Origin: an uncultured Porphyromonadaceae bacterium | Lineage (GTDB): Bacteria; Bacteroidota; Bacteroidia; Bacteroidales; Muribaculaceae | Direction of reading: 5' to 3' | DNA length: 39,947 nt | Assembly (NCBI GenBank): GCA_947175205.1 | Contig: CAMWLS010000022.1 | Location: 1 to 39,947, forward strand | Shown: positions 1 to 28,167 of the stretch, piece after piece | Numbering within the stretch: position 1 is the first letter of the stretch | How the letters are laid out: each line of letters opens with the position of its first letter | Made by a program: the position numbers and the translations under genes | Notes under the pieces: generated by a model | What the model saw: only the letters and a program-made list of their open reading frames with translations | What the model was told of the DNA's origin: nothing | The model's database searches: none

Positions 1-98
1 ATCTAGAGCTTTATTTTCGTCGGCAGCTTCAGATGTGATTTAGAGACATATACAAGAGACTCTATAATATCAGATGCAAAGCAGTAGATAATTTCTGT

Positions 99-980
99 TT
101 GCAGTATATTCCTCATAGTAAGAAGATTTATACGGCAAAGAGTATTAAGAATTCGTTGAATATATATACTTGTTATATAACAGGAAGTGACGTAGTGTGG
201 TTACCTAAACAATCATCTTCAATTCTATTCCTGAGATTTGTTCCTACAAGTATGAAGAAGATTTCATATGCTGCAAGTTTGGGTACTGATAGTTTGACAG
301 CTGAGGAGAAGGCGCAACTGAAAAAGGATTTAATGGGCTTTGATGCTATAAGTGTACGGGAAAAATCAGCTGTTAAGTTATTAGAAAACCTTACCGATGT
401 AAATGTAGTACAATGTCTTGATTCCACGTTGCTTCTTAGTAAGAAAGATTGGGAGTATATAACTTCAGAGAGGATTATTCCTAAAGACTATTTGTTTTGC
501 TATTTTCTTGGGAATAATACAAGGGCAAGAGAACTGGCCATAGATTTTGCAAGAAGAAGGGGTCTACAAGTGGTTAACATCGCTTATTATTGTGATAAGT
601 ACAAAAGAATTGATGATTTTGGCGATATTAAACTTTACGATATATCCCCTTCTGGTTTTCTCTCATTGATTAAATTCGCTAAATTTATTTTTACAGATAG
701 CTTTCATGCGTGTGTATTTTCTCAAATGTTTGAAAAGAATTTTTATGCATTCAAACGAAATGTTAGCGATCCTGCAAGTATTAGATTGGTGGATTTCTTA
801 GGTAATACTCATACTGAAGAGCGATTTATGGATTCACCGGAAAAGGAGAGTTCTAAATATATTAATAATTTAGGCGACATTGATTATTCAATATCAGGGA
901 TAGGCGAGATTAACGATAAGATAGAAATTTCAAAACAATTTCTTAAAAATAATTTGCAACAATTTGTATGTAATGCCTAA
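99..980 (+). CDS. Polysaccharide pyruvyl transferase family protein, N-terminus missing
   Basis: Members of this family transfer pyruvyl (or act as related transferases) onto glycan residues in the cytoplasm. The translation has the family motif TGSDVVW near residue 29 (usual form GSDqvW), an ISVRE segment near residue 84, and FTDSFHACVFS near residue 197 (usual TDSFHg). Family members are usually about 350-400 residues and begin with a Rossmann-like segment that is absent here. The frame is open from base 39, but an in-frame TGA sits at 36-38. Upstream of it, codons 3-35 read as a plausible Arg-rich continuation of the same protein. The gene may therefore carry a nonsense mutation, or the sequence has an error there. 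The TTG at 99 is only the first usable start and is doubtful. The stop overlaps the next gene by 8 bases. Confidence 0.7.
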   Translation: MQYIPHSKKIYTAKSIKNSLNIYTCYITGSDVVWLPKQSSSILFLRFVPTSMKKISYAASLGTDSLTAEEKAQLKKDLMGFDAISVREKSAVKLLENLTDVNVVQCLDSTLLLSKKDWEYITSERIIPKDYLFCYFLGNNTRARELAIDFARRRGLQVVNIAYYCDKYKRIDDFGDIKLYDISPSGFLSLIKFAKFIFTDSFHACVFSQMFEKNFYAFKRNVSDPASIRLVDFLGNTHTEERFMDSPEKESSKYINNLGDIDYSISGIGEINDKIEISKQFLKNNLQQFVCNA

Positions 981-2175
981 GCCACGTATTATTATCCTGA
1001 TGCATTATCTGGAGCTTGGAGGAGCTGAGATGGCTCTTATAGGTCTTCTTCAGGCTCTTGACCCTGAGAGGGTTGATGTGGATTTGTTCATTTATAGTCA
1101 CCAGGGACCACTGATGAAGTATATCCCTAAGTGGGTGAATTTGCTGCCGGAGGTTAAGTCCTATTCCATGATAGAAAGACCCATGGCAGAAGCTCTAAAA
1201 GCGGGGCAGTTCCGCCTTGTGGTAAAGCGCTTGTGGGCGCGCAGGAAGCACTCAAAATATGTTAAGACGGTTAAGTTTACAGGGGATGACGGTTCAATCA
1301 TGCAATATATTGGCAATAGCGTTACACCGGTGTTACCCTGTATTAACCCATCAGTAGAATACGATTTATGTATCAGCTTTCTTACACCGCATAATATCGG
1401 GCGTGACAAGGTGCGTGCCAAGAAGCGTCTTGCATGGATTCATACTGATTATTCTACGGTCCATTTCAATGCTGAGCTGGAACTGCCTGTATGGGATGCA
1501 TACGATGGAATAGCATCTATTTCAGACGAGGTCTCTCATTCTTTCATAGAAACATTTCCAGAGCTGAGTTCAAAGATTACTCGCATTGACAATATATTAT
1601 CATCTAAGTTTGTGCGTGAACGCGCTAATGAGATAAATGTGGACTCTGAGTTAAACGGCGAAATCAAGCTACTCTCCATAGGAAGGTACTGTTCCGCTAA
1701 AAATTATGACAATGTTCCTGATATAGCGCGAAGGCTTGTAAACTCTGGGCTGAGAGGTCTTAAATGGTATATTATTGGATATGGTGGAGGTGAGGCTCTG
1801 ATTCGGAATAAAATTGCAGAGGCAGGTATGCATGAGCATGTAATCCTGTTGGGGAAGAAGGAGAATCCGTATCCATATATTAAGGCATGTGATATATATG
1901 TCCAGCCTTCAAGATATGAGGGTAAATCCGTAACGGTCCGGGAGGCTCAGATATTGGGTAAACCGGTAATAGTTACAAATTACCCTACTGCATCATCGCA
2001 AATCAATGATGGTGTTGACGGTGTGATAGTTCCTCTGGACAATGAGGGGTGTGCTAAAGGCATAGAACATTTCGTTCATAACGAAAAGGTTGTGCAACAG
2101 ATTATCAAGAACCTTCAGAACGGTGATTTCGCCAGTGAATCAGAGGTTAATAAAATATATGAACTTTTGAAATGA
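973..2175 (+). CDS. GT4-family glycosyltransferase
   Basis: This is a cytoplasmic GT-B fold retaining glycosyltransferase that adds one sugar to the lipid-linked repeat unit. The N-terminal domain opens with a Rossmann strand and the acceptor-side GGAE motif near residue 17. The C-terminal donor domain starts around residue 235 (LLSIGRY). It contains the EGKSVTVREAQ segment, which matches the E-x7-E nucleotide-sugar motif, followed by a GKPVIVT strand. The ATG at 973 is preferred over an upstream TTG at 964 because the strand that follows is the true domain start. It overlaps the pyruvyl transferase gene at its start and the acyltransferase gene at its end (ATGA overlap), so these genes are translationally coupled. 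Donor and acceptor cannot be read from the sequence. Confidence 0.9.
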   Translation: MPKPRIIILMHYLELGGAEMALIGLLQALDPERVDVDLFIYSHQGPLMKYIPKWVNLLPEVKSYSMIERPMAEALKAGQFRLVVKRLWARRKHSKYVKTVKFTGDDGSIMQYIGNSVTPVLPCINPSVEYDLCISFLTPHNIGRDKVRAKKRLAWIHTDYSTVHFNAELELPVWDAYDGIASISDEVSHSFIETFPELSSKITRIDNILSSKFVRERANEINVDSELNGEIKLLSIGRYCSAKNYDNVPDIARRLVNSGLRGLKWYIIGYGGGEALIRNKIAEAGMHEHVILLGKKENPYPYIKACDIYVQPSRYEGKSVTVREAQILGKPVIVTNYPTASSQINDGVDGVIVPLDNEGCAKGIEHFVHNEKVVQQIIKNLQNGDFASESEVNKIYELLK

Positions 2176-2984
2176 AAGAGCGGGATTTATCACTTGATAT
2201 TATTAGGATTGTTGCATGCTGCCTTGTGGTTCTGATGCATTCTCCTATGCCCTCAGCCCATGCAAATGGAGTATTTCTGGCCGGCATAAGTTATTTTACT
2301 GCTCCCGGTATAGGATTATTCTTTATGGTCAGCGGGGCATTACTGCTTCCGGTTAAGACTGATTATTTTCCGTTTCTTAAGCGTAGATTATCAAGGGTAG
2401 TGATTCCGACTCTTGTGTGGACCGGAATATATTTAGCGCTTAATATTTATAATAGTCAATCTGAGATTAATATTCTGCAAGTTGTAGCTTCGGTCCCGTT
2501 TTCAGCTCAGGGAAATGGAGTCCTATGGTTTATATATACTTTGATAGGATTATATTTTCTGGCTCCTATTTTGAGTTGTTGGGTAAAATGTGCAACGGAC
2601 AAAGAATTAAAGTTTGTGCTGCTTCTCTGGGCTGTAACCCTATGTAATCCCTTACTTTCATCTTATGTAAATCTTAATTATAATACAACAGGAATATTCT
2701 ATTACTTTACAGGGTATGCGGGATATTTCCTTCTTGGTTATGCACTTAATAGTGGACGTTTGCAACTAAATATAAGTGCACCACTTTTTATTGCTTGTTC
2801 GGGGTTATCATTATTTTTATATTTTAAGCATTCTGGTATAGAGTTTGACTTTTATAAATTGTTCTGGTATGAGTCTATATTCACGGTAGGCTTATGCTGC
2901 TGTTACTGGATTGGCCTGAAAAGATTAACTGAAGTGATATTCCCGGTTCTCAGAAGACCGATATGGGGGGGGGTATTATGTTGA
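2172..2984 (+). CDS. Acyltransferase family 3 (O-acyltransferase), cut short by a G9 tract
   Basis: This is a membrane O-acyltransferase of the AT3 family (OafA/WcjE type), which usually O-acetylates surface glycans. The R-x10-H catalytic signature is present at Arg12 and His22 (DIIRIV...LMHSP). Several hydrophobic helices and a GNGVLWFIYTLIGLYFLAP segment follow. The frame ends early at 2982-2984 just after a run of nine G at 2965-2973, giving 270 residues. The missing C-terminal helices, with the conserved FGIYLMH motif, continue immediately downstream in another frame (to 3226). Ten (or seven) G would restore a 351-residue protein of normal family length. The start ATG overlaps the GT4 stop (ATGA). 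It is a paralogue of the next acyltransferase. See the findings for the predicted switch. Confidence 0.85.
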   Translation: MKERDLSLDIIRIVACCLVVLMHSPMPSAHANGVFLAGISYFTAPGIGLFFMVSGALLLPVKTDYFPFLKRRLSRVVIPTLVWTGIYLALNIYNSQSEINILQVVASVPFSAQGNGVLWFIYTLIGLYFLAPILSCWVKCATDKELKFVLLLWAVTLCNPLLSSYVNLNYNTTGIFYYFTGYAGYFLLGYALNSGRLQLNISAPLFIACSGLSLFLYFKHSGIEFDFYKLFWYESIFTVGLCCCYWIGLKRLTEVIFPVLRRPIWGGVLC

Positions 2985-3226
2985 TAGTCAGCGTGTTAGC
3001 AAATATAACTTTTGGAATCTATCTCATGCATATACTGGTAATGCGCTTTTGGCTTTGGAAGATGGAATGTATAGTCAACATTCCGTCGTACATTGTACAA
3101 ACAATGTTGATTGCAATACTGACATTCATTGTCACGGGGGCGGCTTGTCTCATAATATCTCACACCCCGATGGCCAATGCTGTGATTGGGTATCAAAAGA
3201 GAAAAAGCCGAGGCTCTATTATATAG
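2963..3226 (+). CDS. Displaced C-terminal part of the first acyltransferase
   Basis: This stretch is the continuation of the acyltransferase that starts at 2172, shifted out of frame by the G9 tract. It carries the family's last transmembrane helices and the ITFGIYLMHIL motif that closes AT3 proteins. It ends with a basic cytoplasmic tail (YQKRKSRG) and a natural stop at 3224-3226. The ATG at 2963 spans the start of the G tract and is unlikely to be a real initiation site. I list the stretch because it is coding when the tract holds ten or seven G. Its last 160 bases overlap the open frame of the second acyltransferase. Confidence 0.6.
   Translation: MGGGIMLIVSVLANITFGIYLMHILVMRFWLWKMECIVNIPSYIVQTMLIAILTFIVTGAACLIISHTPMANAVIGYQKRKSRGSII
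2965..2973 (+). repeat. G9 homopolymer inside an acyltransferase gene
   Basis: Nine consecutive G interrupt the reading frame about 265 codons into the acyltransferase. Other G runs I noticed in this AT-rich locus reach only six. The only other run of this size is the C9 (G9 on the coding strand) in the minus-strand acyltransferase at 27832-27840. Runs of this length are classic slipped-strand sites. Nine G gives a 270-residue product, ten or seven a 351-residue product, and eight a fusion into the next gene. Confidence 0.9.
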
Positions 3227-4224
3227 ATAATCTCAGAGTAATTGCTTGTTTTCTCGTGCTTCTGACTCATTCAACTATGTCTGCCTCAGATCCTGAAAAG
3301 GAGGGATTTTGGATCTTTGGATTATCCTTCATTGGAAGTCCGTCATCTGAGCTGTTTCTTGCTCTATCAGGAACAGTACTGTTGCCGGTTAGCGCTGGAT
3401 TTAAGCGTTTTTATATACGCCGATTCCTTAAATTACTGCCACCACTAATTATATGGTCTGTTTTTGGAGTTTTGCTTTATTCTCAGACGCGAGAATGGCC
3501 AATGGATAAAGTGATTGGGGCAATTGTAAGAATTCCATTGCAGCCAGCCATAGGGGTTTATTGGTTTGTGTATGCCATGGCGGGTTTATATCTATTAGCC
3601 CCATTTATTTCGCCTTGGCTGTGTCAGGCCACAAAGAGACAGCTGGAGTTATTTCTTTCTCTCTGGAGTATAAATATGATATTACCATGGATATTATTCT
3701 TTTATCCAGAATTTCTTACTGGCTATAATATCAATGGAAATTATTACTGGGCATTATCATATTTTGGTGGCTTTTTGGGATATTGGATCCTGGGTTATTA
3801 TTTAAGGAAATATCCAATAAAAATTGGACTAAATTTGAAATGGCTTTTTTTATTATGTAGCACCATTGCTTATCCCGGTGCAATTTTTGCGCTTAAAGTA
3901 ACAAAAGGAGAGATAGGATTGCTACTTGATAATTTACAAATTGGAAGTGCTTTACTTGTAGCATTTTTATATACTGTAATGCAAAATTTGCAGTTTAAGA
4001 AGAGTATACAGGCATTATTCACGAGTATGGCAAAATATTCTTTTTGTATCTACTTGACCCATATTTATATAGCAAGAGAGCTGTATTGGGGCTTATTCAA
4101 TGGAAGTACAATTCACATATTCCCACGCTCGTTTATTATAGCTTTGTTAACTCTTTTAACGGGGTATGTTCTAACATATCTGATGACTTTTCTTCCCAAA
4201 GGTAAATATATTACAGGCACATAA
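3067..4224 (+). CDS. Acyltransferase family 3 (O-acyltransferase), second copy
   Basis: This is a second AT3-family membrane O-acyltransferase and a tandem paralogue of the gene before it. Recognisable family sequence begins at LYYIDNLRVIACFLVLLTHS (Arg and His in R-x10-H spacing), runs through GVYWFVYAMAGLYLLAPF, and ends with the YSFCIYLTHIYIAREL motif. The start is unclear. The only ATG is 3067, which gives about 50 leading residues that are the off-frame reading of the upstream gene; TTG at 3145 is a shorter option. No start lies where the family normally begins. The frame is open upstream without a stop as far as the G9 tract, so with eight G this protein would be made as the second half of a 683-residue fusion. 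The stop lies one base before the GT32 gene. Confidence 0.85.
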   Translation: MYSQHSVVHCTNNVDCNTDIHCHGGGLSHNISHPDGQCCDWVSKEKKPRLYYIDNLRVIACFLVLLTHSTMSASDPEKEGFWIFGLSFIGSPSSELFLALSGTVLLPVSAGFKRFYIRRFLKLLPPLIIWSVFGVLLYSQTREWPMDKVIGAIVRIPLQPAIGVYWFVYAMAGLYLLAPFISPWLCQATKRQLELFLSLWSINMILPWILFFYPEFLTGYNINGNYYWALSYFGGFLGYWILGYYLRKYPIKIGLNLKWLFLLCSTIAYPGAIFALKVTKGEIGLLLDNLQIGSALLVAFLYTVMQNLQFKKSIQALFTSMAKYSFCIYLTHIYIARELYWGLFNGSTIHIFPRSFIIALLTLLTGYVLTYLMTFLPKGKYITGT

Positions 4225-4225
4225 T

Positions 4226-4948
4226 ATGAATAGTATTCCTAAGAAAATACATTATTGCTGGTTTGGTAGAAATCCACTACCTGATTCCGCTCTGAGGTGT
4301 ATAGCTTCCTGGCGTAAATATATGCCTGACTATGAGATAATAGAGTGGAATGAGGATAATTTTGACGTGAACTCAATTCCTTATATCCAACAGGCATATG
4401 ATGCAAAGAAATATGCCTTTGTAAGTGACTATGCTCGGTTTAAAATACTATATGAATACGGGGGGCTATATTTTGACACCGATGTTGAAATAATTCGTCC
4501 ACTTGATAAAATAGTTGAAAAAGGTCCGTTTATGGGTTTTGAAATAGACCCTTGTGAACAGCGGCCGTATGGCGCAGTTGCCCCGGGGCTTTGCTTAGGT
4601 GCAGAACCACATATGCCTTTATACAAGAGTATTCTGGATTATTACGGTTCTCTCAGTTTTATTAAACCTGACGGGTCTTACAACACCACGGATGCAGTGG
4701 TTAACATCACAACCCGTGAGTTGATTAAGGCCGGACTTGAGGATAAAGCAGGTATTCAGGAAGTTGCCGGAACAGTAATATACCCAGCTGAATATTTTAA
4801 TCCGTTTGATGACATTACGGGGATTCTGAGGAAGACTGAAAACACATATACCATTCACTGGTTCTCCAAGACATGGTTAAAGGTAAATCCTATAAGACAG
4901 TGGTTTTCCAGGAGGTACCATAGAATTCAAAGATTATTTAAGAAATGA
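4226..4948 (+). CDS. GT32-family glycosyltransferase (DXD sugar-binding region)
   Basis: This cytoplasmic glycosyltransferase of the capsular/mannosyl GT32 type has 240 residues, the usual size. It opens with the IPKKIHYCWFG segment typical of bacterial members. It carries the YARFKILYEYGGLYFDTDVE block, in which Asp84-x-Asp86 forms the metal and nucleotide-sugar binding DXD motif. The C-terminus is basic, consistent with membrane-surface association. It starts one base after the acyltransferase stop and overlaps the polymerase gene by ATGA, so it belongs to the same transcript. The sugar donor cannot be inferred. Confidence 0.9.
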   Translation: MNSIPKKIHYCWFGRNPLPDSALRCIASWRKYMPDYEIIEWNEDNFDVNSIPYIQQAYDAKKYAFVSDYARFKILYEYGGLYFDTDVEIIRPLDKIVEKGPFMGFEIDPCEQRPYGAVAPGLCLGAEPHMPLYKSILDYYGSLSFIKPDGSYNTTDAVVNITTRELIKAGLEDKAGIQEVAGTVIYPAEYFNPFDDITGILRKTENTYTIHWFSKTWLKVNPIRQWFSRRYHRIQRLFKK

Positions 4949-6048
4949 TAGCCGGACGCTTTTATCTTCCGATTTTTCTTTATACAGTTATAATTCTGAC
5001 TTTTTGGTATGCAAACAAAATATCAAGTCATGATTTTAGTAGTATAAAGAGGGGTCAAAATAATTTTGTATTTGCAATATTCGTCAGTTTAATATTTGCT
5101 CTATTCCTTGGCGGTCGTCCAATCTATAGTGGGCAATTTGGAGACTCTGCAAATTATGCTATAACCTATTATAGGTATAACATGGGACAGAATGTCTATA
5201 ACGGAGGAGAAGGGGAATGGCTATGGGCAAAGATGATGTCAGAAGCATCAAGAAGTTTAGATATCTCTACGTTCTTTACCATTGTTGACTTATTATACTT
5301 TGGATTTACCCTGTGGACTTGTAAGAGATTGTGCCCCAACAATATAATGGTGGCTTTACTGTTCATGATTGGAGCATTTTCATTCTATACTTATGCAGTG
5401 AATGGCATTAGAAACGGGCTGGCATGCAGTATTGTATTGTTGGTAATTTCATATATGACAAAGGGTAAACCAAATCTGATAATAGCTGTCCCATTGTCAA
5501 TATTTGCCATGGCAATTCACAGGACCACTATCTTGCCATTAACAAGTTTGTTTGTTTCTGTATTTTTTATAAAGAAGTTTAAGTGGGCATATACTTTCTG
5601 GATTTTAGCAATTTTAATCAGTTTAGTTGCCGGAGGTTTCATGACTAATGTATTTGCCGGTCTTGGCTTTGATGAAAGAATGGTGAAGTATACGCAAGGT
5701 AATATCCATGACCAATATGACAATACGGGCTTCAGATGGGACTTCTTGATATATAGTATGATGCCTATTTTGCTGGGTTATTACATAGTTGTTAAACATG
5801 GTATAAGGGATAAGGCATATGAAATATTGTTAAGTACATATACTTTATCTAATGCTTTCTGGGTTATGGTTATCCGTGCCAATTATTCTAATAGATTTGC
5901 TTATCTTTCATGGTTTATGTATCCCTTGGTGCTTGTTTATCCATTACTTAATATTAATGTATGGGGACCTTCACAAGGTAAAAGAACCAGCCAAATCATG
6001 CTGGCACATATAGGTTTTACATGGTTCATGAATGTTTTCTTTTGGTAA
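4945..6048 (+). CDS. EpsG-family polysaccharide polymerase (Wzy role)
   Basis: This 367-residue multi-pass inner-membrane protein of the EpsG family is the likely repeat-unit polymerase. Visible features are about ten hydrophobic helices, an early loop with GRPIYSGQFGDSANY, the AVNGIRNGLACSI segment (Arg in an Asn-Gly-x-Arg context) and a later helix with the conserved MAIHRTTILP His-Arg. These match the charged-loop layout of the EpsG/Wzy-like family. It sits among glycosyltransferases with tight overlaps on both sides, as expected for a polymerase. No flippase (Wzx) is present in the window and is presumably encoded upstream. Confidence 0.82.
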   Translation: MIAGRFYLPIFLYTVIILTFWYANKISSHDFSSIKRGQNNFVFAIFVSLIFALFLGGRPIYSGQFGDSANYAITYYRYNMGQNVYNGGEGEWLWAKMMSEASRSLDISTFFTIVDLLYFGFTLWTCKRLCPNNIMVALLFMIGAFSFYTYAVNGIRNGLACSIVLLVISYMTKGKPNLIIAVPLSIFAMAIHRTTILPLTSLFVSVFFIKKFKWAYTFWILAILISLVAGGFMTNVFAGLGFDERMVKYTQGNIHDQYDNTGFRWDFLIYSMMPILLGYYIVVKHGIRDKAYEILLSTYTLSNAFWVMVIRANYSNRFAYLSWFMYPLVLVYPLLNINVWGPSQGKRTSQIMLAHIGFTWFMNVFFW

Positions 6049-6049
6049 T

Positions 6050-6922
6050 ATGAAAACTCTTACTGTATTCACTCCCACCTATAACCGCGCTCACACTATT
6101 GGACGTACTTATGAGAGCCTGTGCCGCCAAACGTGCAAAGACTTTGAGTGGCTTGTTGTTGATGACGGGTCTGCTGATGACACTGAGTCAATTGTGAAAA
6201 AATGGATTGAAGATGCCGTAATACCCATCAGATATATAAAAAAAGAGAATGGAGGATTGGCTACAGGATATATTACGGCATTTGCCAATATAGAGTCTGA
6301 ACTTAACGTGTGTATAGATTCAGATGATTTTATGCCGGACAATGCAGTTGAACTTATAGTCAACACCTGGAATAAACGAGGGAAAGGGAGGCCAGACATA
6401 GCCGGTGTGCGAGGCCTTGATTTTTACATGGGTGGTGGCCCCATTGGAGGATATTATACTGACTTGTCAGAGATGCCATACTGGGAACTGGCGAAAACGC
6501 ATTCCGGTGATACAAAATTAGCCATCCGCACGGATCTATTAAAGGCGCTCCCGGTAATGAAAATATATCCCGGAGAGAAAAATGCTAATCCATCTTACTA
6601 TTTCTGGCAGATTCCTCAGAAGTATATAATGCTGAATGAAAATCTGTGCTGGGTGGATTATCAACCTAATGGAATGGCCGCCGGTATATTCAGGCAATAC
6701 AAGAATTCACCCAATAGTTTCGCGCAATATCGCAGAATGTTGTTGAACCATCCCGCAGTCCCATTGAAGCGGAAGTTTCTTGAAGCTGTACATTACGTGT
6801 CAAGTTGTATCTTCGCACGACAGTGGGATATGGTGTCTACATCTCCAAGAAAAGTACTCACCATAGCTGCATTTTTACCCGGATGTCTACTAAATGCGTA
6901 TGTCAGATATAAAGCAAAATAA
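6050..6922 (+). CDS. GT2-family glycosyltransferase
   Basis: This is an inverting GT-A glycosyltransferase with a cytoplasmic N-terminal catalytic domain. The start VFTPTYNRAH is the typical first strand, VVDDGS is the nucleotide-binding motif, and CIDSDD is the DXD-type metal site near residue 90. The ATG at 6050 is chosen because it directly precedes the first strand and lies one base after the polymerase stop; an upstream in-frame ATG at 6032 would overlap the polymerase. The C-terminal half has no catalytic hallmark and a hydrophobic stretch near the end. The next gene begins inside its last codons. Confidence 0.9.
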   Translation: MKTLTVFTPTYNRAHTIGRTYESLCRQTCKDFEWLVVDDGSADDTESIVKKWIEDAVIPIRYIKKENGGLATGYITAFANIESELNVCIDSDDFMPDNAVELIVNTWNKRGKGRPDIAGVRGLDFYMGGGPIGGYYTDLSEMPYWELAKTHSGDTKLAIRTDLLKALPVMKIYPGEKNANPSYYFWQIPQKYIMLNENLCWVDYQPNGMAAGIFRQYKNSPNSFAQYRRMLLNHPAVPLKRKFLEAVHYVSSCIFARQWDMVSTSPRKVLTIAAFLPGCLLNAYVRYKAK

Positions 6923-8033
6923 GCCAATCAGAGTACTCCAAGTCCTACACGTACTAAACAGAGGGGGAGCGGAGGCTATGGTGATGAATCTTTATCGCCA
7001 TATTGACAGGTCAAGAGTACAATTTGATTTCCTGGTCCATTCTCAGGAGAGAGGACTGTTTGAGGAGGAGATAGGAGCAATGGGCGGTCGTATTTTTCGT
7101 GTGCGAGCCTTTAAAGGATATAATCTACTTCCGTATTATCAGGAGTGTCTCCAATTTTTTAAAAGCCATCCTGAGATTAAGGTTGTACATGGGCATTTAG
7201 GGAGCTCTGCTGCATTTTATCTTCACGCAGCTAAGAAATGTGGCATATTCACCATAGCACACTCTCATTCGGCAGGTAGTATCAGAAATTTTTATGATTT
7301 ATCATATAAGTTTTTCTCTTTCCCAACACGCTGGGTTGCTCAGCAACTCTTTGGGTGTTCAACAGAAGCCGGAATTGAAAGATATGGAGCAAAAGCGGTG
7401 AGGAGTAGTAAATATCACAATTTCAATAATGCCGTAGATACTGAGCTCTTCCGTTTCAATGAGGATAATAGGGCATTATTGAGAAGTGAGTTGAATATTC
7501 CGGAGAATACGTTATTAATCGGAACAGTAGGGCGTGTTACACAGCCAAAAAATCCACTACGTATATATTCCATCTTCAAAGAGATAATAACCCATAACAC
7601 TAATGCTGTTTGCATCTGGGTAGGAACAGGCGAGATGGAAGACCAGATAAAGGACCTGATTTCAAAAGACGGAGTAGGGGACAGGATAATAATGACCGGG
7701 GTCCGTTCAGACATACCGGCTGTTATGTCTGCACTTGACTGTATGATATTTCCGTCACTTTGGGAAGGACTGCCGGTATCGGTTATAGAATCTCAGATGG
7801 CGAATCTGCCATGTGTCCTGTCAACAAATATAAGCCGGGAGACAGAGGTCTCAAATCTCCTTTCTTGGCATAATCTTAGCGAAGCTGACTCTATTTGGGC
7901 TAATGATGCTATCCGTCTGGCTCAAGATTATAAAGATAAGAGGAATAATTATAACTTCTCGCCTGAAGATTCCGGTTATGATATCAAAGTAACTGCGGAT
8001 AACCTTATGCGGTTCTATGAGAAGCATGCTTAA
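6900..8033 (+). CDS. GT4-family glycosyltransferase (EpsF-like)
   Basis: This is a retaining GT-B glycosyltransferase. The N-terminal domain has RVLQVLHVLNRGGAE, the family's glycine-rich acceptor loop, and HGHLG near residue 100. The C-terminal domain begins at IGTVGRVTQPKNP near residue 205. It contains WEGLPVSVIESQ, the E-x7-E nucleotide-sugar motif, preceded by the FPSLWEG strand. This arrangement resembles EpsF-type enzymes of exopolysaccharide loci. The ATG at 6894 (two codons upstream) is an equally possible start. It overlaps the GT2 gene and its stop overlaps the licD-like ATG (TAATG), implying coupled translation. Confidence 0.9.
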   Translation: MSDIKQNKPIRVLQVLHVLNRGGAEAMVMNLYRHIDRSRVQFDFLVHSQERGLFEEEIGAMGGRIFRVRAFKGYNLLPYYQECLQFFKSHPEIKVVHGHLGSSAAFYLHAAKKCGIFTIAHSHSAGSIRNFYDLSYKFFSFPTRWVAQQLFGCSTEAGIERYGAKAVRSSKYHNFNNAVDTELFRFNEDNRALLRSELNIPENTLLIGTVGRVTQPKNPLRIYSIFKEIITHNTNAVCIWVGTGEMEDQIKDLISKDGVGDRIIMTGVRSDIPAVMSALDCMIFPSLWEGLPVSVIESQMANLPCVLSTNISRETEVSNLLSWHNLSEADSIWANDAIRLAQDYKDKRNNYNFSPEDSGYDIKVTADNLMRFYEKHA

Positions 8034-8950
8034 TGTTTTCTATAAATATGTTACACACCAAGCAAATCCTTACAGAAATATATAATACTAATAAGGTAGC
8101 TCATCAGCTGACAGATGAGGAGTTGACAGCACTTCAAAGACATCTGATGAAGATGTACAGGGATATTGAAGCGGTATGTAAGCGTCATGGACTGGGAATA
8201 TGTTTAGCTTATGGCAATGTGATAGGAGCTATGCGTCACGGTGGCTGGATTCCATGGGATGATGATCTTGATACCCACATGTCTCGTGAAGATTATGAGC
8301 TCTTCCTTTCCAAGTATGCAGATGAACTGCCACCCCAATATAAAGTCTCGTCCTATCTAAGCAAAGATGGCTCAATAGCAAGGTTTGCTAAGATAATTGA
8401 TACCTCCACCACTTTTGTTCCGGTTGGGGGGCATAAGGATGAGAACTCCGGAGTTTTTATTGACATCTTCCCCATTGATAATGTGGGCACTAATAATTTA
8501 GTAAATAAAGTAAAGAAGCTTTGGGCTTACTTTTTAATGTATGTGGCAGGTTCTGTATTGCAGGTAGAGGAAAATTCTGAAACGTATAAGCAAGCCATGT
8601 CCAGTACAAAGGCCGGACGGCTTAATTGGCGCTTCCGTCAGATACTGGGCCGCGTATTCTCATTTGCACCAAGTAAGAAATGGAACAGCTGGATAGAAAA
8701 ATATGCTAAATTTCCTAAAAATACGGGTTTCTGTCATGTGCTTTCTGACTTAGCCATATGTTTTAAAAAGATCCCGGCAGACTATTACTTCCCATTTAAG
8801 AAAATTAATCTTAAGGGTATTGGAGATGTAGACATTCCTAATAAGCATGATGAATACTTGAGACAGTCATACGGAGATTGGACAAGAATTCCTGAAGAAA
8901 AAGATCGTTGGCATCATTATGTAAAAGAAATTAATATACCAAAAGGATAA
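8033..8950 (+). CDS. licD: LicD-family phosphotransferase (predicted phosphocholine transfer)
   Basis: LicD proteins transfer phosphocholine from CDP-choline to a sugar hydroxyl of a surface glycan. The signature block is present: GLGICLAYGNVIGAMRHGG, then WIPWDDDLDTHMSREDYE with the Asp cluster at 76-78 and 80, and later GVFIDIFPIDNV, a typical LicD segment. Length is 305 residues, slightly longer than the shortest family members. LicD relatives exist that transfer other phospho-alcohols. Choline is supported here by the cytidylyltransferase, choline kinase and BCCT transporter encoded immediately downstream. The start overlaps the stop of the GT4 gene. Confidence 0.85.
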   Translation: MFSINMLHTKQILTEIYNTNKVAHQLTDEELTALQRHLMKMYRDIEAVCKRHGLGICLAYGNVIGAMRHGGWIPWDDDLDTHMSREDYELFLSKYADELPPQYKVSSYLSKDGSIARFAKIIDTSTTFVPVGGHKDENSGVFIDIFPIDNVGTNNLVNKVKKLWAYFLMYVAGSVLQVEENSETYKQAMSSTKAGRLNWRFRQILGRVFSFAPSKKWNSWIEKYAKFPKNTGFCHVLSDLAICFKKIPADYYFPFKKINLKGIGDVDIPNKHDEYLRQSYGDWTRIPEEKDRWHHYVKEINIPKG

Positions 8951-8964
8951 ACCAATTATAAAAG

Positions 8965-9741
8965 ATGAAAAAGATTCTATTACTCTCATTAATGGCATTT
9001 ATATTCTCAAATGCTGTTTACTCACAGGAAGATACTACAGCGGTAGAGAAAAATAACTGGGGTGGAAAAATGATTAACTCTCCTTTTGGCCTTGGCCTTG
9101 ATATCCAGACAAAATATGTTTGGCGAGGTATGGAAATGATGTCAGAGGATTCTGCTCCCGTGCTTTTCCCATCCCTAAATTATTCATGGAAAGGTCTTTT
9201 TGTCTATGCTATGGGGGGATACTCTGTTAATGGCAAATATGCAGAAGTAGACCTTGGTGCCAGCTATACAGTAAATGACTTTACCTTGGGTTTTAATGAT
9301 TATTATTACCCTACAGTTGATAGTAAGGAAGATGAATATTTCGGAGGAGGTAAGCATACAGGTCACTGGCTGGAGGTATGCGTAAATTATGCGCCTTCCA
9401 AAATTCCTCTATTGGTAACCGTTAGCAATTTCTTCGCGGGAAATGATAAATATATTAATGACAAAGGAGAAGAAAAACAGGCTTATTCTACTTATGTTGA
9501 GTTAGGCACGTATTATGACTTTCTCAAACAAAACAGAATTGCTCTTAACGTAGGAGCAGCCTTGAATAAGTCTTGTTATAATAATTATGAGCATGACTTC
9601 TCAGTTTGTAATCTTGAATTAAAATACACCTATACGGTCCACTTTAAGAGCGGCTGGACTCTGCCTCTGAACGCGGCATATATATATAATCCGGTCTTTG
9701 ATAAATCATTTGTCAATTTGACGGTAAATCTCGCATTCTGA
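8965..9741 (+). CDS. Outer-membrane beta-barrel protein, TorF/Gcw_chp-like putative porin
   Basis: A clear signal peptide (MKKILLLSLMAFIFSNAVYS, cleavage near AVYS/QE) precedes alternating beta-strand sequence ending in a C-terminal Phe (NLTVNLAF), the usual outer-membrane barrel end signal. The opening strand LGLDIQTKYVWRGMEM matches the YVWRG pattern of the TorF/Gcw_chp family of small putative porins. The gene is 14 bases after licD and one base before the LicC-like gene, so it is almost certainly co-transcribed with choline genes. I infer that it may let choline or a choline ester cross the outer membrane; nothing in the sequence proves the substrate. Confidence 0.75.
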   Translation: MKKILLLSLMAFIFSNAVYSQEDTTAVEKNNWGGKMINSPFGLGLDIQTKYVWRGMEMMSEDSAPVLFPSLNYSWKGLFVYAMGGYSVNGKYAEVDLGASYTVNDFTLGFNDYYYPTVDSKEDEYFGGGKHTGHWLEVCVNYAPSKIPLLVTVSNFFAGNDKYINDKGEEKQAYSTYVELGTYYDFLKQNRIALNVGAALNKSCYNNYEHDFSVCNLELKYTYTVHFKSGWTLPLNAAYIYNPVFDKSFVNLTVNLAF

Positions 9742-9742
9742 A

Positions 9743-10618
9743 ATGGCACGGAACAAGCGGAATGCCATAATAATGGCAGCAGGAACTTCTTCCAGGTTTG
9801 TACCTCTTTCTGCTGAAATACCTAAAGGACTCATGGACGTCAACGGAGAGGTTCTTATTGAAAGGCAGATAAGGCAACTTGAGGATGCCGGCATTAGGGA
9901 TATAACCGTAGTAGTAGGTTATATGGCCGAAAAATTTATGTATCTTACTGAAAAGTATGGCGTTTCGCTTGTCCTTAATGAAGACTATAATAGATTTAAT
10001 AACACATCTTCCTTAATCCGAGTCCTGGATAGGCTAAGAGACACATATATTTGTTCCTCTGATAATTACTTCCCTCACAATGTATTTATAGGTGACCCCC
10101 AAGAAGGTTATTATAGTGCGCTTTATTCCCATGGCATGACCAATGAATACTGTCTTTCAGTAAATGATGGTGGAGAGATTACAAGTGTGACTGTTGGAGG
10201 TAAAGATAGCTGGTACATGGTTGGTCATGTATATTTTGACAGAGCTTTCAGTGAGAAATTTAAACAAATTCTCATGTCCGAGTATGATAAACTTGAGACT
10301 AAACTCGGATACTGGGAAGATGTATATATAAGATTCATAAATGAGCTTCCAAGGTTGAGAATTTATAAATATCAGGATAATGAAATTTATGAATTTGATA
10401 CTCTTGATGAACTTAGGGAGTTTGATAAGTCATATGTTTGCGACTCACGTTCACATATTTTGAAAGACATAGCTCGCAGGTTGGACTGCTCCGAATCTGA
10501 ATTGTGGAATTTTAAAAAAGCACCTGATTCAACTATCCCCATAAATTTCACTTTTGATAGAGGAAAAGATAAGTTCCTTTATCAAGGTACTGACCAATCA
10601 ATTTTGAAACTTTCATGA
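9743..10618 (+). CDS. licC: LicC-like CTP:phosphocholine cytidylyltransferase
   Basis: This enzyme would make CDP-choline from CTP and phosphocholine. It has the nucleotidyltransferase signature AAGTSSRF followed by PKGLMDVNG, and the LicC-like block YGVSLVLNEDYNRFNNTSSL. It then has a SSDNYF metal-site segment (LicC: DADNY) and a YWEDVY segment. The order and wording resemble pneumococcal LicC closely. About 60 residues extend past the usual LicC end; this tail (DCSESELWNFKKAP) has no domain I recognise. The next gene overlaps its stop by ATGA. Confidence 0.82.
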   Translation: MARNKRNAIIMAAGTSSRFVPLSAEIPKGLMDVNGEVLIERQIRQLEDAGIRDITVVVGYMAEKFMYLTEKYGVSLVLNEDYNRFNNTSSLIRVLDRLRDTYICSSDNYFPHNVFIGDPQEGYYSALYSHGMTNEYCLSVNDGGEITSVTVGGKDSWYMVGHVYFDRAFSEKFKQILMSEYDKLETKLGYWEDVYIRFINELPRLRIYKYQDNEIYEFDTLDELREFDKSYVCDSRSHILKDIARRLDCSESELWNFKKAPDSTIPINFTFDRGKDKFLYQGTDQSILKLS

Positions 10619-12207
10619 AGACCGCTGTAATACTTGCTGCACGAAAGGAAAAGGATTCTGAGATTCCTTATCCACTAATGCTATTTGCTGATGGAATGTG
10701 TCTTCTTGAGAGGGCATTAGGGCTTCTAAGAGATAACGGTTATGATGATATTATCATTGTTGCCGGTTACAGAAGTGAACTTTTTAATCCGTATAAGGCT
10801 CCTGATGTTAGGATATTGACTAATCAAGAGTATGAGTTTACGGCATCAATGGGCTCATTGGCGCTATGTAAAAAATTTATTCATAATGATTTTCTATTAG
10901 TTGAGAGCGATACTTTCTATGAGTCATCAGTAATACGGGCACTGTCTGAGTTAACAAATGGGAACTGTTTCTCTATTACGGAAGAAAGTGGTTCCGGAGA
11001 TGAGTGTTTTGTTGAAACCAAAAATGGTTTTGTTACTCAAATTACCAAGGACCGCCACAGAGTACGTAATTTTGAGGGTGAGATGATGGGAGTAACCAGA
11101 ATTTCATATGATAGCTTTCTAAAGATCATAGAAGCTTGGGAGCGCTCAACCAACCCATATCTCAACTATGAGTATCTGCTTATGGATGTTACAGATGCCC
11201 TTGATCGCCCGTGTATTAAGTTTCCTAATGTGATCTGGGGAGACGTGGATTGTAAGGATGACTTCAAGAGACTGCAGAATGAAATTTATAGATCTCTTAG
11301 AAGAAAAGAGGATCCTTATGATTTAGATAATCTCAGGGGTTACATGCGTTCTATTTTTCCTGATTGTGATGCATTTAAAGCAGAAATAGAACAAATGGGT
11401 GGAATGAGTAACAAAAACTTCAAAATTACTTACGGAGGGAAAAGCTACGTGCTAAGAGTCCCGGGCAATGGCTCAGACGGAATGGTGGAACGGACTAATG
11501 AGGAGTTCAATGCATCTGCAGCATGTAAACTTGGAGTCAATCCCACGATTCGTTACTTTAATTCTGAAACCGGAATTAAGTTAGCGGACTATATTGAAAA
11601 TGCGGAGACGCTGAATGCTGCAACGATTCAGCGTCATGACAATATGCGTAAGATAGCCAAGATATATCAGACAGTACACAACTCACATATTAGATTACGT
11701 AATGAATTTAATATTTTTCATGAGATTGATAAGTATGATCGTTTGATAGACATAGCCGGTGCGACAATGTACGAAGGCTGGGAAACTGTTCGCCCTCAGA
11801 TTATGGCACTTGAGGGATTATTAAATACGATAGGAGTGGACCTGAAACCGTGCCATAATGATGCTTTATATGAAAACTTCATAAAGGCCACAGATGGAAC
11901 AGTTTATCTTATTGATTGGGAATACTCAGGTATGAACGATCCAATGGCTGATTTCGCAGCATTATTTATTGAGGCTGATTTTGAAAAAGAGAATGAAGAT
12001 TATATTCTTGAGCAATATTTTAATGGAGATATTCCCGAGAACACTCAAGTAAAGATTAAATGTTATCAAATACTATGGGATTACTTGTGGTCACAATGGA
12101 CCGTGATAAAGGAAGCCAAGGGAGATGACTTTGGAACTTACGGACAAGACCGTTTTAATAGAGCACAATCAAACTTAAAATTATTATATTCAAACTATAT
12201 TAAATAA
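10615..12207 (+). CDS. Nucleotidyltransferase-like / choline kinase (LicA-type) fusion
   Basis: The protein has two domains. Residues 1-240 have a nucleotidyltransferase-like fold, but the GxGxR signature loop is replaced (ILAARKEKDSE) and the following Lys of the PKPL motif is Tyr, so catalysis there is doubtful. Residues about 260-530 are a choline/aminoglycoside-kinase domain: GGMSNKNFKI, YVLRVPG (ATP-binding Lys/Arg region), CHNDALYEN with His414, Asp416 and Asn421, and IDWEYSG with Asp434. These are the catalytic and Mg-binding motifs of choline kinases. LicC-LicA type fusions are known in other bacteria. With the separate LicC next door, this gene most likely supplies phosphocholine. 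Confidence 0.85.
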   Translation: MKTAVILAARKEKDSEIPYPLMLFADGMCLLERALGLLRDNGYDDIIIVAGYRSELFNPYKAPDVRILTNQEYEFTASMGSLALCKKFIHNDFLLVESDTFYESSVIRALSELTNGNCFSITEESGSGDECFVETKNGFVTQITKDRHRVRNFEGEMMGVTRISYDSFLKIIEAWERSTNPYLNYEYLLMDVTDALDRPCIKFPNVIWGDVDCKDDFKRLQNEIYRSLRRKEDPYDLDNLRGYMRSIFPDCDAFKAEIEQMGGMSNKNFKITYGGKSYVLRVPGNGSDGMVERTNEEFNASAACKLGVNPTIRYFNSETGIKLADYIENAETLNAATIQRHDNMRKIAKIYQTVHNSHIRLRNEFNIFHEIDKYDRLIDIAGATMYEGWETVRPQIMALEGLLNTIGVDLKPCHNDALYENFIKATDGTVYLIDWEYSGMNDPMADFAALFIEADFEKENEDYILEQYFNGDIPENTQVKIKCYQILWDYLWSQWTVIKEAKGDDFGTYGQDRFNRAQSNLKLLYSNYIK

Positions 12208-12209
12208 AA

Positions 12210-13733
12210 ATGGCAGCAGAAAACAAAAAGATAGATTGGAGCACCATGTTGATTCCGTTTGCTCTTGTTGTGGCAATGATGGCAGTATTTATGGTGTCAC
12301 CGGAGGAATCAAAGAAAGTTGTTGATACATTGAGAACTTTCTTTGGAGATACCATAGGTATATATTATCCCATACTTGCCATTGCGTGCGTTTTGATTTG
12401 TATTTATCTGGCCGTGACTCCTAAATATGGAAATATAAAATTAGGTAATATTGATAAACCGGCATATAGCAATTTTAAATGGGGCACGATGATATTTACT
12501 TCCACCATGGCAGCTGATATCATGTTCTATTCCCTTATTGAATGGGCACTTTACGGAGGAGAACAGCATGTACAGGATCTCGGAGGCACGCAGATGTGGG
12601 CTCCTACATTCACTCTTTTCCACTGGGGACCTTTAGCGTGGGGATTTTATGTAGTTTTGGCGGTATGTTTTGCCTTTATGATTCACGTTCGTCGTCGTCA
12701 ACGTCAGCGCTTTTCTGAAGCTTGTCGTCCCATACTTGGGAACAAGGTTGACGGTTTCTGGGGGAAAGTGATAGATGTAATTGCTATATTCGCAGTTGTT
12801 TGTGCCACAGGAACCACTTTCTCATTGGCCACACCCTTACTTACGCAGGCCATGGGCTCAGTATTTGGGTTTGGAGTAAGCACCGCTATAACCATAGTGG
12901 TACTTCTTCTGATATGCGCTATATATACTGTAACAGTACTGTTTGGACTGAAAGGTATAAGTCATCTTGCAGAGATTTGCTCATATCTCTTCTTTGGAAT
13001 TTTATTTTATTTCTTGTTTCTTGGAGGTGAAACGGGTTATATAATTGAGACAGGCTTGCAATCTTTGGGTAATCTTGTTCAGAATTTCATTGGAATGTCA
13101 ACATATATGGACCCACTGAGAGAAACAGGATTTGCACAGGCATGGACTGTATATTACTGGGCCTACTGGCTTGTATGGTGCGTTGCCACACCATTCTTCA
13201 TCGCTATTATTTCCAAGGGCAGAACAATCAGAAACACCATATGGGGCTCCTTTGCATGGGGCCTTGCCGGAACATACATGTCATTCATTATACTTGGGAA
13301 CTATGGTCTTGCCCAGCAGATGAAACACGGCGTTGACGTAATTGGCTTTATGGGGAACGGTGGATCAATGTATGACGCCATTTTCATGATTTTTGATACG
13401 CTCCCGCTTCCGGCGTTTGCACTCATCCTCTTAGTAATTACCATGATAGCATTCTACAGTACCACTCTTGATGGTATTACCTATGTCACATCCTCATACA
13501 GTTACAAGCAGATAGGCCCGGATGAGGAACCATCAAAGGGCATCCGAGCATTCTGGAGCATAATGCTCATCCTACTTCCCATAGCGCTTCTCTTTTCTGA
13601 AAACACGCTCTATAGCTTACAGGGAGTGACTATTATAGCCGCCTTTCCGGTTGGAATACTTCTGATTATGATAGTATACAGCTTCTTTAAGGACTGCAAC
13701 AATTGGCTTAAGTCAATCGCAAATAAAAATTAG
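12210..13733 (+). CDS. BCCT-family transporter (predicted choline uptake)
   Basis: This is a 507-residue inner-membrane transporter with about 12 helices, of the betaine/carnitine/choline transporter family. The signature region is WTVYYWAYWLVWC starting at Trp312, followed by ISKGRTIRN, the family's cytoplasmic loop. The first part of the signature reads W-A-Y-W where most members have W-x-W-W. The final gene of the phosphocholine module, it starts two bases after the kinase stop. In Haemophilus the choline permease LicB belongs to a different family, so this is an analogous replacement. Substrate choice between choline and betaine/carnitine rests on gene context. Confidence 0.85.
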   Translation: MAAENKKIDWSTMLIPFALVVAMMAVFMVSPEESKKVVDTLRTFFGDTIGIYYPILAIACVLICIYLAVTPKYGNIKLGNIDKPAYSNFKWGTMIFTSTMAADIMFYSLIEWALYGGEQHVQDLGGTQMWAPTFTLFHWGPLAWGFYVVLAVCFAFMIHVRRRQRQRFSEACRPILGNKVDGFWGKVIDVIAIFAVVCATGTTFSLATPLLTQAMGSVFGFGVSTAITIVVLLLICAIYTVTVLFGLKGISHLAEICSYLFFGILFYFLFLGGETGYIIETGLQSLGNLVQNFIGMSTYMDPLRETGFAQAWTVYYWAYWLVWCVATPFFIAIISKGRTIRNTIWGSFAWGLAGTYMSFIILGNYGLAQQMKHGVDVIGFMGNGGSMYDAIFMIFDTLPLPAFALILLVITMIAFYSTTLDGITYVTSSYSYKQIGPDEEPSKGIRAFWSIMLILLPIALLFSENTLYSLQGVTIIAAFPVGILLIMIVYSFFKDCNNWLKSIANKN

Positions 13734-27141: not shown

Positions 27142-28167
27142 TTATTTCTTCCAGAAAAGGAGGCTATATATTTTAGACCATCTAAGGACCCAGACAATAA
27201 TTATACAGCATAGTATAATTATTAAGGAATTTAAGGTTACTATGGGGAATTCCCAAATAGTATTATAAGTTGACTTTATAAAACGGAGGATTGCAGGAGT
27301 TTCAAAATATGCAAGTACAAAATAATGGATTAGATATATTTCCAAAGTCAATGATCCAATAAAAGCAAGTGCTCTAAGAATTACATGATTAGGGAAACTC
27401 CTGGATAAATTGTAGAAGGTAAAAAGCAATATGTAAATACCGGCAACCGGAGTGAGAAGGATAAGATAGCCCCCAATGTATAATGATAATACGAAAGAGA
27501 TGGCGCTTATTATGAAGTAGGGCCACTTTAATAATTTTGTGTTGTATTTATTCCAGAGTATTCTAAATATACAGCCAAGAAATATAAATCTGAGATATGA
27601 AATATAGTGTTCAAAACTGAGAAGATTACTCAGCCCCGTTGAATAGAATGATGTATGACTGGCCACATAACTTTGACAAACAACAGAAATTAATATTAAT
27701 AGCGTAAAGGCAAGAATTCTAACGTGACTTTTAACTCTATTTTTTGTAAATAAATATAATATTGGAATCAGTGTGAAAAAATATAGTACTGATACATACG
27801 TGAACCAATAGCCAACTTTAAATTCATCATACCCCCCCCCTATTACGTCAAAATGATAGAAAATTGCCACGAATAATAAGAAAAATATTATTGTAGGGCA
27901 CAATTGCTTAATAACTCTATTTTTAGTCCTGCGCCATATCAGTTGACTGTTGTATTCTATACTATACATGAAAAATCCACTGATAAAAAAGAATAGAGGC
28001 ATGCGAGTGGTAGAAATAATTGATTTCAAAAAGGTTTGAGAGTGGCACAAATGAGCATATACTACTAAAATCATAGCTACGCCTCTAATCATATCAATCC
28101 ACTCAGCTCTATTTGATATCTTTTTGTCCGCTGGCAAAATTTTTGTGTAAAGATTTCTTGTGACCAT
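27142..28167 (-). CDS. Acyltransferase family 3 (O-acyltransferase) with in-frame G9 tract
   Basis: This 341-residue membrane acyltransferase has the AT3 signature IRGVAMILVVYAHLCHS (R-x10-H) near residues 28-39, RMPLFFFISGFFMYS, GYWFTYVSVLYF, and the closing LEIYLIHYF motif. It belongs to the OafA-like branch and is not a close copy of the two acyltransferases at 2172-4224. Codons 110-112 are three Gly encoded by nine consecutive G (27832-27840). The tract is in frame here, so the gene is intact. Gain or loss of one G would truncate the protein after about a third of its length. It faces the polysaccharide operon tail to tail and is divergent from the operon at 28524. Confidence 0.9.
   Translation of the reverse strand: MVTRNLYTKILPADKKISNRAEWIDMIRGVAMILVVYAHLCHSQTFLKSIISTTRMPLFFFISGFFMYSIEYNSQLIWRRTKNRVIKQLCPTIIFFLLFVAIFYHFDVIGGGYDEFKVGYWFTYVSVLYFFTLIPILYLFTKNRVKSHVRILAFTLLILISVVCQSYVASHTSFYSTGLSNLLSFEHYISYLRFIFLGCIFRILWNKYNTKLLKWPYFIISAISFVLSLYIGGYLILLTPVAGIYILLFTFYNLSRSFPNHVILRALAFIGSLTLEIYLIHYFVLAYFETPAILRFIKSTYNTIWEFPIVTLNSLIIILCCIIIVWVLRWSKIYSLLFWKK
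27832..27840 (-). repeat. G9 homopolymer (coding strand) inside an acyltransferase gene
   Basis: Nine C on the + strand read as GGG GGG GGG, encoding Gly110-112 of the minus-strand acyltransferase. The frame is intact with nine. It is the same base and length as the tract at 2965-2973 in another acyltransferase of the same locus. With eight or ten G the downstream helices and the C-terminal YLIH motif would be lost. Confidence 0.9.

Follow-up and report, generated by a model that had tools for sequence, protein, structure and literature searches.

A run of nine G that splits an acyltransferase gene: a candidate phase-variation tract among the long G-runs of a Muribaculaceae genome

When a run of nine G breaks the frame of an acyltransferase gene, does it mark a switch, a gene in decay, an assembly fault or a site of recoding? 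The question is raised by a stretch of 39,947 nucleotides (the window, meaning the whole of the DNA analysed) from an uncultured Porphyromonadaceae bacterium of the Muribaculaceae. The window is contig C22 (CAMWLS010000022.1) of a draft genome of 68 contigs and 2.15 Mb. The gene, AT3-1, belongs to the acyltransferase-3 (AT3) family and is interrupted at the run GGGGGGGGG. On the sequence evidence we consider it likely that this run is a translational contingency tract, by which replication slippage varies AT3-1 in phase. The relevant features are as follows.

2172..2984, plus strand: N-terminal part of AT3-1, 270 amino acids as read (open reading frame, PF01757 at 1.2e-29, hydropathy)
2965..2973, plus strand: G9 run, followed by TA (homopolymer scan, shuffles)
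2972..3226, plus strand: C-terminal part of AT3-1, with two predicted helices and the motif FGIYLMH (alignment, hydropathy, frame reading)

An earlier note on this DNA had claimed that the nine G shift the frame of an AT3 gene, leaving 270 residues, and that the missing helices and FGIYLMH continue in another frame. Both points hold. The open frame ends at a stop 11 nt past the run, and the N-terminal part matches Pfam PF01757 with 103.9 bits, against a curated cut-off of 31, over profile positions 2-253 of 326. The C-terminal part is read in a different frame, with codons from 2972 and a stop codon at 3224. Searched alone against Pfam it gives no match; it aligns over its full length, FGIYL included, with the C-termini of intact homologues from the same genus, with frames of 345 amino acids (locus L018) and 357 amino acids (L019). 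Loci, contigs and genomes carry L, C and G numbers throughout. Hydropathy places two membrane helices in the out-of-frame part, so the AT3-1 product as assembled is predicted to lack its last two helices.

The presence of the run is less telling than its position. Two runs of 9 are the only G/C homopolymers of 7 or more in the window. In dinucleotide-shuffled windows G9 averages 0.26, and 5 of 100 shuffles reach two, so that two are only moderately unlikely by chance. It is the placement in AT3 genes, rather than the occurrence of G9 itself, that chance fails to explain. The second run of the window also lies in such a gene, intact and in frame.

27142..28167, minus strand: AT3-3, intact, with an in-frame run (open reading frame, PF01757)
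27832..27840, minus strand: second G9 run, followed by TA on the coding strand (homopolymer scan, shuffles)

The whole genome has 12 runs of at least nine G and eight AT3 matches. Four runs at contig ends (two on C10, one each on C17 and C64) were taken as artefacts and eight as real, a run on C11 being kept among the eight because it is inside an AT3 gene. Of these eight, three fall in AT3 genes with G on the coding strand (chance 5e-7). The C11 match, which lies at the contig end, breaks off at its run, and C17 opens with a C-terminal AT3 fragment right after a G run of 42. Local alignment of the C11 tail with the C17 head scores 95, the best of 500 shuffles 82, so the two are probably parts of one gene, at whose poly-G run the assembly broke. 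This paralogue is 58% identical to AT3-1 over the N-terminal part and, read by eye, carries its run within about two codons of the AT3-1 run site.

Does the association extend beyond one genome? A set of 49 genomes of the genus holds 459 runs of at least nine G, 447 of them outside the window's own genome; these 447 reduce to 297 when runs less than 300 bases from a contig start or less than 150 bases from another run are dropped. Distinct run contexts to the number of 168, own genome included, were looked at, four loci having been fetched because they overlap AT3 genes. They comprise 67 intergenic runs, 37 within a same-strand frame, 5 in split frames, 34 in opposite-strand frames and 25 mixed; several of the same-strand frames look like chance open frames (for example L032, L058, L083, L122 and L181). 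AT3 matches number 249 in the genus, and run overlap was checked in the 150 listed matches and the fetched loci. At least 10 of the 459 runs, the focal run included, are in AT3 genes, all with G on the coding strand, where 0.53 would be expected at 1.1 kb per match and a uniform run rate (P 3e-10). When nine of the proteins were made into a local AT3 profile and both strands of the fetched loci were searched with it, the same ten genes were returned, with only L047 added, an opposite-strand frame whose 5′ edge touches a run and which was counted as intergenic.

Six of the ten AT3 runs are in frame (window 27832, L110, L113, L114, L115 with G14, and L185), three are out of frame (window 2965, L116 and L184) and the C11/C17 case is undecided, these states being compared among different genes, not among alleles of one gene. 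In L115 and L116 the run stands just ahead of the AT3 domain.

Elsewhere in the genus, contig C10 of G040 has five runs of at least nine G in 34 kb together with two listed AT3 matches, and looks like a run-rich glycan locus. On contig C43 of G011 (L117 and L118) AT3 genes are apparently broken with no G-run, one by a frame split and one by an internal TAG.

The TA that follows both runs of the window recurs widely. It stands after 79 of 155 runs of nine or more and after 311 of 6626 runs of 3-7 (Fisher P 3e-58), the count being limited to loci fetched by the run itself. By setting, TA follows 45 of 67 intergenic runs, 20 of 40 on the same strand as a coding frame and 10 of 34 in opposite-strand frames. 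The pattern HG9TA is present in 96 of 119 genomes of the family and in 67 of 178 genomes spread over the order (three of these 67 belonging to the family). Its built-in control is weak because AT often precedes runs, and only the control of the TTAAC search described below was used as evidence.

Genes of other families also carry runs, and are listed without an expected number, enrichment having been computed for AT3 only. Runs are in frame in three glycosyltransferase 2 genes (L061, L200 and L218, the last between its glycosyltransferase and PIG-L domains), in a gene of L220 that resembles window 964-2175, in a hexapeptide protein (L094), in a TonB-plug protein (L096) and in two similar proteins with weak DUF4394 matches (L101 and L180). 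They are out of frame in L201, L183, L182 and L103, and L213 is undecided. The L201 glycosyltransferase 2 is split into parts that correspond to PF00535 positions 1-40 and 48-129; L183 is a split sugar-transfer ATP-grasp gene, whose downstream part alone has a Pfam match. With the AT3 genes, 25 run-bearing genes comprise 16 in frame, 7 out of frame and 2 undecided, a tally that is not a random sample because the genes were hand-picked for looking like real ones.

Two further observations concern these genes. On the minus strand of L091 an in-frame G9 (1501-1509) lies near the C-terminus of an EcoRI-type adenine methylase, possibly a phase-variable one. Short N-terminal leaders that resemble one another, each with ATG, TTG and a G-run, were seen by eye at L094:1478-1501 (plus), L103:1510-1535 (minus) and L182:1310-1335 (minus); they precede three unrelated genes in three genomes, namely the hexapeptide protein, a protein of no family and a radical SAM protein.

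Many of the intergenic runs share an architecture of their own, with TTAACA-N4-TTAAC just upstream. In 23 of the 28 runs with TTAAC or TTAAT no more than 14 nt upstream, TAnnTTTG, which we take to be the Bacteroidota -7 box, begins 15-24 nt past the run; it occurs at a control offset in 1 of 28, and in 2 of 129 other runs. The upstream element may be an activator site and TAnnTTTG a promoter, both putative. Loci L057, L072, L111, L164, L199 and others have the full arrangement TTAACA-N4-TTAAC-N0-6-G8-11-TA with TAnnTTTG about 19 nt further on. An ATG frame of suitable length starts within 420 nt downstream of 55 of 80 runs of at least eight G followed by TA, and within 250 nt in 50 of the 55; these 80 runs are those not inside a same-strand gene, loci chosen by TTAAC included. 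By eye, many of the downstream frames start like signal peptides and some are alike (for example L086 and L206 of G040 and L140 of G008). The motif, ahead of likely surface-protein genes, could thus be a transcriptional switch. Allowing up to one mismatch, TTAACNNNNG9TA was found in 80 of 198 family genomes (reversed control 8) and in 15 of 247 across the order, three of which belong to the family (control 6). This points to a class that is largely confined to one family, probably the Muribaculaceae. The window's own genome has no TTAACNNNNG9TA at up to one mismatch.

The surroundings of AT3-1 bear on what the enzyme might modify and on how the gene might be expressed.

964..2175, plus strand: group 1 glycosyltransferase gene upstream of AT3-1 (Pfam)
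2938..4224, plus strand: AT3-2 reading frame, AT3 domain from 3217 (open reading frame, PF01757)

Ten proteins around AT3-1 match Pfam families. The matches include polysaccharide pyruvyl transferase, group 1 and group 2 glycosyltransferases, a DXD glycosyltransferase, an EpsG-family protein, LicD, a nucleotidyltransferase, choline kinase and a BCCT transporter, and because of them we read the region as a polysaccharide locus, apparently with phosphocholine genes. The last four cluster at 8033-13733 in what looks like a module for phosphocholine decoration. The label of capsule O-acyltransferase given in the earlier note is borne out as regards the AT3 family and a polysaccharide locus; capsule and O-acetyl are deductions from these two.

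A search of genome contigs for relatives of the AT3 gene returned one, L220, from an uncultured Muribaculaceae bacterium; as the sole named relative found, it is the ground for calling the family probably Muribaculaceae. Its gene similar to 964-2175, a likeness judged by eye, has an in-frame G10-TA run. That gene, a glycosyltransferase, stands ahead of the AT3 gene of the locus, and its run (L220:1908-1917) is followed by an apparent partial tandem duplication, again by eye. A structure model of the L220 AT3 protein had a pLDDT of 45.7 and was set aside.

How would the run act? Replication slippage within the G9 would move the downstream AT3-1 codons into and out of the frame of the N-terminal part. 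Depending on the frame, a cell would make the complete enzyme or one without its final two predicted helices. Acylation of a surface polysaccharide, the glycan presumably made by the surrounding locus, would thereby be switched stochastically. The G9 would be one of many long G-runs in the genus and family, some within AT3 genes, glycosyltransferases, a methylase and outer-membrane proteins, others just upstream of promoter-like boxes of surface-protein genes. The fit to phase variation by slippage lies in the frame break at the run, the recurrence of coding-strand runs in AT3 genes, the presence of both frame states and the probable assembly break in the paralogue. Slippage, its reversibility, loss of function in the short product and a glycan substrate are each suggested by the sequence patterns. 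The earlier note had proposed that this strain varies glycan acylation by slippage; AT3 enrichment, runs in other surface-glycan genes, related genes in and out of frame and the probable paralogue break lend that proposal support. The second G9, the promoter-type runs, the TA signature and the open third frame into AT3-2 go beyond it.

Several observations weigh against phase variation by slippage. The C11 run is 90 nt from a contig end; dropping it leaves 2 of 7 runs in AT3 genes, both in the window. The run lengths are those of draft assemblies, and in this genome the ends of contigs C10, C17 and C64 bear poly-G artefacts. The intact AT3 homologues of L018, L019 and L220 have no G-run of six or more in the gene. 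A relative from G011 (L020/L027/L117), 66% identical over 158 residues of the N-terminal part, is divided between frames, and no homopolymer nearer than 150 nt to the break reaches six, so that AT3 genes break without runs too. A common run site was expected in the related AT3 genes of L114 and L184; their alignment places the runs at different sites, which makes independent origin more likely. On the minus strand of L010 a probably essential gene, which we take to be IspG-like, has an in-frame G9-TA at 4001-4009. In G474, TA is missing after 9 of 10 runs looked at, the L220 run with TA aside.

The first alternative is one-way loss, by which AT3-1 would be a young pseudogene, redundant with the AT3-2 directly after it. 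The assembled copy is indeed out of frame, an AT3 domain lies immediately downstream and the G011 relative is split with no G-run near its break. Against this, the frame of the C-terminal part is still open and keeps the family motif, the break falls at a G9, the greatest G-run length in the window and one reached only twice, runs in AT3 genes are far above chance and AT3-3 in the same window has its run in frame. We regard a pseudogene as unlikely. Less probable still is an error of sequencing or assembly, with a true run of different length and a gene that is simply intact. Such an error would be in keeping with a 68-contig draft and with its contig-end artefacts, including the 42-G run on C17 beside an AT3 fragment; a long G-run exists, however, even if its length is wrong, and the TA signature and gene classes are common to runs in many assemblies, unlike machine errors. 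Programmed ribosomal frameshifting or transcriptional slippage, giving both products from one gene with the DNA unchanged, is very improbable: homopolymers can slip during expression and both parts are kept open, but three intact homologues have no run and run positions differ among related genes, unlike conserved recoding signals.

Phase variation by slippage might have a further dimension. The AT3-2 frame opens at 2938, ahead of the run, and extends to 4224. Past the run, the sole ATG, GTG or TTG codons ahead of the AT3-2 domain are at 3049, 3055, 3067 and 3145, the last being the TTG at 3145. Off-frame stretches of 75 codons with no stop are rare: among 1470 overlapping stretches taken from 23 other window genes, 5 are stop-free. 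The run may therefore act as a selector among three frames, the first stopping at once, the second leading to the C-terminus of AT3-1 itself and the third continuing open into AT3-2. Since that third frame is open, and AT3-2 lacks a usual start near its domain, the run would set AT3-1 short, complete or joined to AT3-2. That the run is such a three-position selector within a family-wide system, and that TA marks a shared process which creates, maintains or reads runs in Muribaculaceae, is a joint proposal we hold only tentatively and think rather doubtful.

Poly-G switching itself has precedents. Contingency loci of poly-G or poly-C are known in Campylobacter, Helicobacter and Neisseria, and as far as the accessible accounts go they resemble the present runs in having G on the coding strand, on and off frames, a bias to surface glycans and a promoter-placed class. 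They differ in that the runs described here belong to a Bacteroidales family and have TA after half of the long ones, and in that variation within a population is here a proposal. In the accessible part of a study of Helicobacter canadensis, a poly-G late in a gene decides which C-terminus is made and, in one pair, whether the two proteins are separate or joined (PMC2823697). Here, unlike that case, both neighbouring genes are AT3 acyltransferases, and the evidence is of sequence. The intergenic class is like the fimbrial promoters of Bordetella, in which the available text places a C-stretch in the promoter region (PMC1891110), as a homopolymer in a promoter region ahead of surface-protein genes; it is unlike them in its TTAACA direct repeat and TAnnTTTG box, and its effect on transcription is putative.

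That Bacteroidales are known for inversion, as the earlier note had it, agrees with two reviews, whose accessible parts describe switching in Bacteroides by DNA inversion (PMC11868660, PMC12632263). No inverted pairs flanking AT3-1 were found in 1-6100; six inverted pairs of at least 14 nt occur there, with arms 79-88% complementary, none around an intergenic promoter, and the start of the locus is off the contig. Inversion systems, as far as described, share with our proposal the stochastic switching of capsule and surface genes and the bacterial order; the mechanism proposed here is slippage. Phase-variable O-acetyltransferases include oafA of Haemophilus influenzae and the meningococcal oat genes. 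A phase-variable O-acetyltransferase of Escherichia coli K1 is recounted in the available text of PMC3090145, which also carries a suggestion from 2010 of slippage in acetyltransferase genes of Bacteroides fragilis, with an extra C in a run of four. The K1, H. influenzae and meningococcal enzymes resemble the present case in repeat-driven switching of polysaccharide O-acetyltransferases; repeat types and hosts differ. Within a literature covered in part, most subscription journals lying outside it, neither titles nor abstracts dealing with poly-G switching in Muribaculaceae came up. The mechanism is thus a known one; within the literature covered, its setting, its extent and the architecture of TA and promoter look new.

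What would such switching mean for these bacteria? Muribaculaceae are abundant gut commensals. If their surface glycans and proteins do switch by poly-G slippage, the cells of one clone would differ in how they meet phages, antibodies and diet glycans, a heterogeneity that methods for finding inversions do not see. Run lengths could then be read straight away from metagenomes that already exist, and the promoter-type runs offer a defined, testable architecture.
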